A stretch of 38,201 nucleotides of DNA from NCBI GenBank assembly GCA_902562135.1, contig CACESE010000010.1:1-38201 (forward strand), given 5' to 3'. Source of the stretch: an uncultured SAR86 cluster bacterium. Lineage in GTDB: Bacteria; Pseudomonadota; Gammaproteobacteria; Magnimaribacterales; AG-339-G14. Shown one piece after another: positions 1-1,020 of this stretch (the first letter of the stretch is position 1; each line of letters opens with the position of its first letter). Position numbers and translations under genes: made by a program. The notes under the pieces were generated by a model. That model ran no database searches, had not been told where the DNA came from, and saw only the letters and a list, made by a program, of their open reading frames with translations.

Positions 1-449
1 ATATGGATGCAGTCAGTATTTTAAAATCTGCTGAAGTTTCAGAAGAATTCATTTCAAATTCAATTCCTGAATTCGTTTTATTCTGGCGAGAGAAAAAATT
101 TAAGTCTGACGTATGGAATACTCTATTTATAAATCATGTAAGAAAAGAATGGGCAAAATTTACTAATAAAATAAATGATAAAAATAAACCAAAAAAAATG
201 ACTAAAAATTGGGAGCCCGATCCGAGTTGTTATGATGTATTGAAGATGACAAAGATAAATAGAAAATTTGCAGAACAACAGCTTGCAGAATTTAGAATTT
301 TTTGGATTGATTCAAATGAGATAATGACGTCCTGGAATTCAAAATTCATACAACATGTGAAATATAAATGGTTCAAAAAAAATCCTAAAGCCTCTGGTAT
401 CATATCTAGATTAAACGATAGAGAATGGGCAGTAGATGTCGAGTATTAA
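1..449 (+). CDS. DnaT-like protein with two tandem DnaT domains (5' partial)
   Basis: The protein resembles the DnaT-type single-stranded-DNA-binding domain used in primosome assembly and helicase loading. Two copies are visible. The second (about residues 69-125 counted from the ATG at position 3) starts with the typical W-x-P motif (NWEPDP) and ends SWNSKFIQHVKYKW. The first ends VWNTLFINHVRKEW but lacks its W-x-P start, so the real N-terminus very probably lies left of the window; the frame is open to the edge. The last 14 bases overlap the lambda P-like loader gene, which suggests translational coupling and a joint role at the replication fork. A charged, Lys/Asn-rich linker separates the repeats. 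The domain call is fairly firm; the exact role (restart or initiation) is inferred. Confidence 0.7.
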   Translation, partial: MDAVSILKSAEVSEEFISNSIPEFVLFWREKKFKSDVWNTLFINHVRKEWAKFTNKINDKNKPKKMTKNWEPDPSCYDVLKMTKINRKFAEQQLAEFRIFWIDSNEIMTSWNSKFIQHVKYKWFKKNPKASGIISRLNDREWAVDVEY

Positions 450-1020
450 AGTACCAAATAATAAAGTAGAGCTTATAAATCTAATTTTTACTCAGCTTGA
501 AGTTACTTACCATAATCAATTTCATAAGGCTTACCCTGATAAGAATAGTTTAAATTTAGCTAAACAACTTTGGCTGAGTCAGTTACAAAAATTTGAAGAA
601 AAAATAATTTTCGATAGCGTTAATTTTTTGATGACGTCATCTGAATTCCTTCCGAGCTTATCTAAATTAATGATCACGTGCAAAGAATCAAAAATTAAGC
701 TATGCGGAATTCCAAATGTTACTCAGGCTTATAGAGAAGCATGCAATGCCAAGAATAATTTTGAAAAATTTACTTGGTCGCATCCTATTGTTTTTTACAT
801 TGGTTCTGAGACGGGTTGGGATTTTCTTTGGACTCAGCCAGAAAAAGAATCTTATAAAGAATTTATGTCAAATTATAATGTCTTTGTAGAAGACTTTATA
901 AATGGAAAAGTTTTTAATAATCCCAATTTTCCCGAACTCCCTAAAGATATAAAAATTAAACCAAATAAGACTGCACAACTTACTCAAATTCAAAAATTAA
1001 AGAATAAGCTTATTAATTAA
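436..1020 (+). CDS. Phage lambda P-like replicative helicase loader
   Basis: This 194-residue protein resembles the replication protein P family, which recruits and opens the DnaB helicase. Family features seen are the N-terminal helical segment with a conserved LW..QL stretch, the SSEFLPSLSKL segment, the VTQAYREACNA helix, and the G-(S/T)-E-TGWDFLW-like region around residue 130, followed by a basic C-terminal tail. Lambda P-type proteins lack a P-loop, and none is seen here, which argues against a DnaC-type AAA+ loader. The ATG lies inside the 3' end of the DnaT-domain gene (14-base overlap). No other phage genes (integrase, O protein, structural genes) are visible, so this looks like a domesticated chromosomal loader rather than prophage. 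The family call is moderately confident. Confidence 0.65.
   Translation: MSSIKVPNNKVELINLIFTQLEVTYHNQFHKAYPDKNSLNLAKQLWLSQLQKFEEKIIFDSVNFLMTSSEFLPSLSKLMITCKESKIKLCGIPNVTQAYREACNAKNNFEKFTWSHPIVFYIGSETGWDFLWTQPEKESYKEFMSNYNVFVEDFINGKVFNNPNFPELPKDIKIKPNKTAQLTQIQKLKNKLIN

Follow-up and report, generated by a model that had tools for sequence, protein, structure and literature searches.

SAR86 is an abundant marine lineage. Two overlapping genes at the start of the window, by which we mean the whole stretch of DNA analyzed (38,201 bases), probably encode its version of DopC/DopE, a chromosomal loader of the replicative helicase that replaces DciA and that appears to have been shortened to one protein in two SAR86 families (f3 and f4). 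SAR86 very probably uses the pair as its chromosomal loader, and if this is right, an essential replication step in this lineage relies on phage-derived parts. A domesticated pair is already known, and the SAR86 genes fit it (DopC/DopE; Brezellec 2017); what is new, as far as we have seen, is its fate inside SAR86. On balance, we favor the view that the two families independently made a one-protein loader, in which the P-type C-terminal docking helix was grafted onto the DnaT-array protein and the remaining DopE was lost.

In the proposed mechanism, the winged helix and the DnaT domains of DopC would bind DNA and hold it as (ss)DNA at the opened origin. The lambda P-like DopE, whose role in binding and loading DnaB we infer from this homology, would bind the helicase at its subunit interfaces, with its C-terminal helix docking on it. 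DnaB would thereby be brought to, and opened on, the DNA held by DopC. Because no dopE was found in f3 and f4, and their DopC carries a DopE-like helix, one protein would do both jobs there: the tail would bind DnaB, and the single protein would load it.

Genes at the contig edge

The source genome is 76% complete, with 989 kb in 26 contigs, and the window is one entire contig, so that its first base marks an assembly edge, and this edge truncates the DnaT open reading frame (3–449). This frame is the 3′ part of a dopC-like gene (3..449, forward strand), and it encodes two DnaT domains and the C-terminal end of the protein, according to Pfam PF17948 and an alignment with full-length relatives. 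The Pfam match comprised two stretches (E 1e-36, 124.9 bits; curated cut-off 25), and the second DnaT domain had its best stretch at residues 65–127 (195..383, forward strand). Full-length DopC proteins of the same family have 303–332 aa, with an additional N-terminal half, and the alignment with them showed that about 170 N-terminal residues are absent from the window. The preliminary description had spoken of a protein with two DnaT domains; this is actually the C-terminal part of a longer protein with a winged helix and DnaT domains.

The dopE-like gene (436..1020, forward strand) overlaps the end of dopC by 14 bases and encodes a predicted lambda-P-type helicase loader of 194 aa, identified by PF06992, phrog_109, hhalign, and AlphaFold2. 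It matched Phage_lambda_P (PF06992) with an E of 1.1e-9 and 38.7 bits (curated cut-off 26), and phrog_109, "P-like helicase loader," with an E of 6.3e-22. The overlap of a lambda P-like protein with a protein carrying two DnaT domains, as first described, was thus borne out by the Pfam and phrog matches, and the profile searches that had been suggested for the two families both gave scores above the curated cut-offs.

DopE is related to lambda P

The comparison of the DopE and lambda P profiles (hhalign) aligned 176 columns, corresponding to lambda P 38–231, with an E of 9e-8. The AlphaFold2 model of the window DopE had a mean pLDDT of 93.3, and its top PDB match in Foldseek was the DnaB-bound lambda P of 9oa1 (E 2e-5). 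Structure alignment with 9oa1 gave a Z of 10.8 over 177 residues with an rmsd of 6.2; for helical bundles, a Z below about 13 can reflect a common arrangement, and the top four structure rows were nonetheless all helicase loaders.

The model has three parts. The N-terminal helical bundle (residues 10–89; 463..702, forward strand) is like SPP1 G39P (1no1) in sequence (E 0.012) and in the model (Z 8.6, rmsd 1.9, 67 residues). The second helical bundle of the model (residues 95–155; 718..900, forward strand) was aligned to lambda P about 119–192 (8v9s; Z 6.9, 66 residues). The C-terminal helix (residues 178–193; 967..1014, forward strand) corresponds, judging from the model and the alignments, to the C-terminal segment of lambda P. 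DopE is homologous to lambda P over most of its length, including this segment, and its predicted fold matches that of lambda P in complex with DnaB, whereas it differs from it in being chromosomal, in its order-wide conservation, and in having a partner with DnaT domains. With SPP1 G39P it shares the N-terminal bundle, but the second bundle is added in DopE. Work on lambda P and DnaB shows that DnaB is bound by lambda P residues 103–233, with the site completed by the C-terminal segment, and crosslinking puts K229 close to the DnaB CTD; the sequence assignment is termed tentative by its authors (PMC6391071).

Shortened forms of DopE also occur. In the f2 genus g6 (L061–L063), DopE has 147 aa and lacks the second helical bundle, with the C-terminal tail clearly kept; in the layout of its bundles, it is nearer to G39P. 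The DopE of genome G205 has 169 aa and retains the N-terminal bundle and a tail-like stretch, which is followed by further residues. Since both shortened proteins retain the N-terminal bundle and the tail or a similar stretch, the tail is the constant element.

Architecture of DopC

All 22 DopC proteins of alignment A3 had a match to DnaT (PF17948). One protein was scanned per group: there were three DnaT stretches in the DopC of f3, G205, G243, and Thalassolituus, and two in that of f1 (window genus), f2, and f4. The PDB sequence matches of DopC were DnaT entries, the best of them being 4ou7 (E 0.014). In the model of an f3 DopC (mean pLDDT 78, pTM 0.34), the N-terminal part resembles a winged helix and is followed by three helical units like those of DnaT, by a stretch of low confidence (314–331), and by a C-terminal helix (333–346). 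The duplicated DnaT domains may, as first proposed, bind two stretches of DNA. Foldseek with this model gave zero matches at E ≤0.001; the confident short ones were winged helices, and the search was uninformative on the tail. DopC thus has in common with E. coli DnaT the DnaT DNA-binding domain (PF17948), but carries it in two or three copies after a winged helix, and its gene lies beside that of a P-type loader. For the structure alignments, the window DopE was joined by 40 of its 43 eligible relatives (A5), and 35 of the 58 eligible DopC proteins were used (A6).

Locus, distribution, and selection in SAR86

The genes at the locus are scpA, scpB, and rluB-like, and then DAHP synthase, dopC, dopE, MFP, RND, xseB, polyprenyl synthetase, and dxs (Pfam names from L051). 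In the locus counts, where some loci stem from the same genome, dopE came directly after dopC in 33/33 f1 and 29/29 f2 loci, and DAHP synthase was immediately upstream of dopC in 32/33 f1, 26/29 f2, 37/40 f3, and 16/16 f4 loci. In the distant genome G243, too, DAHP synthase lies ahead of dopC. The preliminary description had noted that there were no phage genes nearby. This agrees with the relatives, as none was seen by eye in eight longer loci and DAHP synthase lies at the left in nearly all f1 loci, but in the window itself the contig edge stands at that side. A prophage origin of the locus was considered and rejected because of synteny and distribution.

The 203 genomes of the order comprised 40 from f1, 107 from f2, 35 from f3, and 21 from f4 (families in listing order), and 40 of the 203 were good genomes (≥90% complete and ≤5% contaminated). 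DopC profile matches occurred in 173 of the 203, in 39 of the 40 good ones, and in all 22 genera; counted from the listings, 36 were in f1, 89 in f2, 32 in f3, and 16 in f4. The corresponding counts for DopE were 36, 90, 0, and 0. A protein search found DopE in 36/40 f1 genomes, including 13/13 good ones, in a single copy each. The 77 DopE-negative genomes consisted of the 56 from f3 and f4 and of 21 from f1 and f2, the latter mostly incomplete drafts. One of the 40 good genomes was without a DopC match and, going by the listings, apparently without DopE too. The dN/dS values were 0.04–0.18 in 12/20 pairs with estimable dS, dS often being saturated, and the DopC/DopE pair of SAR86 is under purifying selection.

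Other helicase loaders

The DciA profile gave no match in the 203 genomes of the order, the 40 good ones among them, with controls in which it matched 7 of 14 named control genomes and 8 of another 12 from the class. It also gave none in 32 genomes with DopC (29 non-SAR86 and 3 SAR86; completeness not given). For DnaC/IstB-type loaders (PF01695), 20 genomes were scanned, and the 10 SAR86 genomes among them had no full-length match (up to about 135 of 238 positions and ≤35.7 bits). The search for dciA and dnaC that had been called for at the outset thus turned up neither a DciA match nor, in these 10 genomes, a full-length DnaC-type one. The partial match in L224 was to a DnaA-like frame followed by a DnaN-like frame (by eye), and the sole DnaC-sized frame (230 aa, G092) covered 31 positions of PF01695 (E 8.8e-4). 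The three genomes with strong matches (G243, G571, and G584) were all outside SAR86, and two of these matches (L221 and L223) adjoin transposase-like frames (by eye). As PF01695 matched 13 of 14 controls, the profile is not specific.

Brezellec et al. reportedly described in 2017 a domesticated lambda-P-type gene and its partner that replace the loader in genomes without DciA and DnaC/I. The name DopC is said to come from that work, in which DopC was reportedly derived from lambda O. The SAR86 pair is like it in consisting of a domesticated lambda-P-type gene and a partner, with DciA and DnaC/I lacking. The lambda-P-type gene is chromosomal, its partner is conserved, and the searches for DciA and, in 10 SAR86 genomes, for DnaC/DnaI agree with this. 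The families f3 and f4 differ, as a separate DopE was not found in them and their DopC has a DopE-like C-terminal helix. The proposal of a third, domesticated combination for helicase loading therefore stands as regards a chromosomal lambda-P-type loader with a DnaT partner and no DciA match, but the combination is not new, as it fits DopC/DopE. One study, citing Brezellec 2017, states that DciA or DopE generally serves in bacteria that lack AAA+ loaders (PMC13326638).

A DopE-like tail on DopC in f3 and f4

The DopE profile gave no match in the 56 f3 and f4 genomes, and DopE may have diverged beyond recognition elsewhere in them. At the position where dopE would be expected, the MFP gene was found ≤400 bases from the dopC stop in 39/40 f3 and 15/16 f4 loci, against 0/33 f1 and 1/29 f2 loci. 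All complete DopC proteins of f3 (40/40 loci) and f4 (16/16 loci) end in a tail motif or a close variant of it; L125, which has no complete DopC, was excluded from this final count. These ends (e.g., LQRLREKHQI and LTNLREKYKI) resemble those of f2 DopE (LFESLRKKHNV).

A scoring matrix trained solely on 26 f2 DopE ends gave median scores of 19.0 for f4 DopC (n = 16) and 13.4 for f3 DopC (n = 30), whereas the highest score of 501 other proteins from the SAR86 loci and the window was 0.0; 0 of 9,200 shuffles attained the f3 and f4 medians. The DopC proteins of f1, f2, and other bacteria, where a separate DopE is present, had medians of −17.8, −15.9, and −14.6, respectively. True DopE ends scored slightly above the controls (median −7.7 in f1 and −3.0 in other Pseudomonadales), and lambda P itself scored −19.9, below most controls. 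The matrix is therefore not general, and the link between the tail and lambda P, like that among the DopE ends, rests on the alignments. Identity was 73% (f3) and 71% (f4) in the last eight residues, and 19% and 39% at positions 15–28 from the end.

We consider it well supported by these comparisons that a DopE-like tail sits on DopC in f3 and f4. That the LxxLRxKHxI-type end is instead a chance or low-complexity likeness in AT-rich, lysine-rich proteins is improbable: the motif is short, the matrix fails on lambda P, and the lowest single tail (−3.6) was attained by 7 of the 501 controls (3 for the lowest f3 tail and 7 for that of f4), but none of the 501 attained either median, DopC proteins with a separate DopE score far lower, and the conserved tail comes after a variable linker, with MFP where dopE would be expected. 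A more serious question is whether the tail was transferred once, in an ancestor that f3 shared with f4. The ends of the two families are alike in kind, and dopE was found in neither, but the DAHP synthase tree made f4 the sister (99/98) of f2, which retains dopE, and the DopC tree likewise put f4 with f2 (94/88; this tree carries a long-branch warning for f2 and f4). These trees were built from chosen subsets of 60 and 43 rows; the DAHP synthase tree had five f1 rows, of which one was half filled, and excluded five others cut by locus ends. A single f3 + f4 clade was rejected (p-AU 0.012; one gene, with the group named after the trees were inspected). The junctions differ as well, in that most f3 tails retain, ahead of the extension, the SW motif that belongs to the original DopC end and f4 tails lack it, and the scanned f3 protein has three DnaT stretches, compared with two in f4. 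Taken together, the trees, the differing junctions, and the differing DnaT numbers favor two independent transfers, and a single one is unlikely.

If two families did graft the helix onto DopC, the docking helix alone would suffice to couple DnaB to DNA-bound DopC, and a DciA-like design would have re-evolved from phage parts. DciA has predicted C-terminal helices after an unstructured linker, according to one study (PMC9825169). The DopC of f3 and f4 is like DciA in its layout of a DNA-binding part, an unstructured linker, and a C-terminal helix, but the two are unrelated in sequence as far as searched, which would be a possible convergence in layout and not membership. In the literature covered, which did not include the original 2017 DopC/DopE paper, no work was evidently on a DopE tail carried by DopC, and we make no claim that it is absent from print. 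If our reading is right, the SAR86 families form a natural deletion series, with the full DopE, the 147-aa DopE of g6 without the second bundle, and the C-terminal helix alone on the DopC of f3 and f4, which makes the irreducible DnaB contact of a P-type loader directly testable.

Carriers outside SAR86 and viral relatives

The profile search of genome contigs revealed 508 DopC-relative stretches, of which 79 loci were kept. By their record titles, the non-SAR86 loci belong to Thalassolituus, Gilvimarinus, Simiduia, Teredinibacter, Porticoccus, Parahaliea, and others. DopE was beside DopC in 47 of 49 of these loci, and the two exceptions (L162 and L188) are contig ends. In an even sample of the class, 16 of 370 genomes had a DopE match (4 SAR86 and 12 outside), and none of the 12 outside matches was as strong as the Cellvibrionales-type DopE; families of this type were either undrawn or missed by the loose first pass, and a comparable miss could affect other whole-genome absences. 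DciA was present in 8 of these 12 genomes; the four DciA-negative ones were G205 and G243, with DopC, and G345 and G480, without it.

Among viral contigs, the DopC query led to 11 loci and the DopE query to no confirmed locus. In three contigs (L235, L237, and L238), the gene for a protein with a single DnaT domain comes directly before a P-like gene; these P-like genes were found with profile A5 (E 1e-7 and 2e-6) and were below the Pfam cut-off. Proteins with HTH_36 and one DnaT are encoded in L235, where the gene adjoins the P-like one, and in L236. Judging from these three contigs, the pair looks more like the phage O–P arrangement than like a mixture of E. coli DnaT and a phage loader, the DopC profile itself having a probability of 0.2% in the comparison with lambda O. 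Among phage records, there were 18 matches with the DopE query and 4 with the f1 DopC query, and the Thalassolituus DopC query matched 4 phage records and 1 plasmid record, each over a single DnaT-sized stretch. From the few contigs available, it is plausible that the ancestor of DopC/DopE resembled the viral pair of a single-DnaT protein and a P-like protein, and the DnaT domains would have multiplied afterwards, on the chromosome. The IMG/VR contigs L230–L234 encode proteins of about 170–215 aa with a strong DopC-profile match, two DnaT units by eye, and no P-like neighbor.

The distribution bears on two other explanations of the pair. It might be a prophage remnant or mobile element without a role in chromosome replication, with an unrecognised other loader serving the chromosome. 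The nearest named relatives of DopE among phages are indeed phage P proteins, and the 8 of 12 P-like-positive genomes outside the order that have DciA may carry P genes of mobile elements; the single conserved locus in SAR86 with one copy per genome, the presence of DopC in every genus at a dN/dS of about 0.1, and the lack of a DciA match in any tested DopC genome make this highly improbable. It is also rather improbable that the pair acts in replication restart, like E. coli PriA–PriB–DnaT, and that something else loads the helicase at the origin. The restart protein DnaT of E. coli has such a domain, and DnaT entries are what DopC matched in the PDB, but no other known loader was found in these genomes, the P-like partner is the origin loader in phage lambda, and the viral arrangement is O–P-like. 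As a chromosomal loader, the pair may take part in both origin loading and restart.

L130, titled Rhodobiaceae, and L150, titled Verrucomicrobiaceae, carry SAR86-like and Pseudomonadales-like DopC, respectively, and these titles may be wrong. G480 (L077, L088, and L119), a genome of 3.9 Mb without a DciA or DopC match, has two P-like genes at separate sites. G345, also without a DciA match, encodes a protein of 385 aa (L118:4871–6028/L080) with a P-like stretch behind an N-terminal region (PF06992 0.0048, below the cut-off) and no DnaT match; from its sequence, this protein is possibly another one-protein version of the loader.
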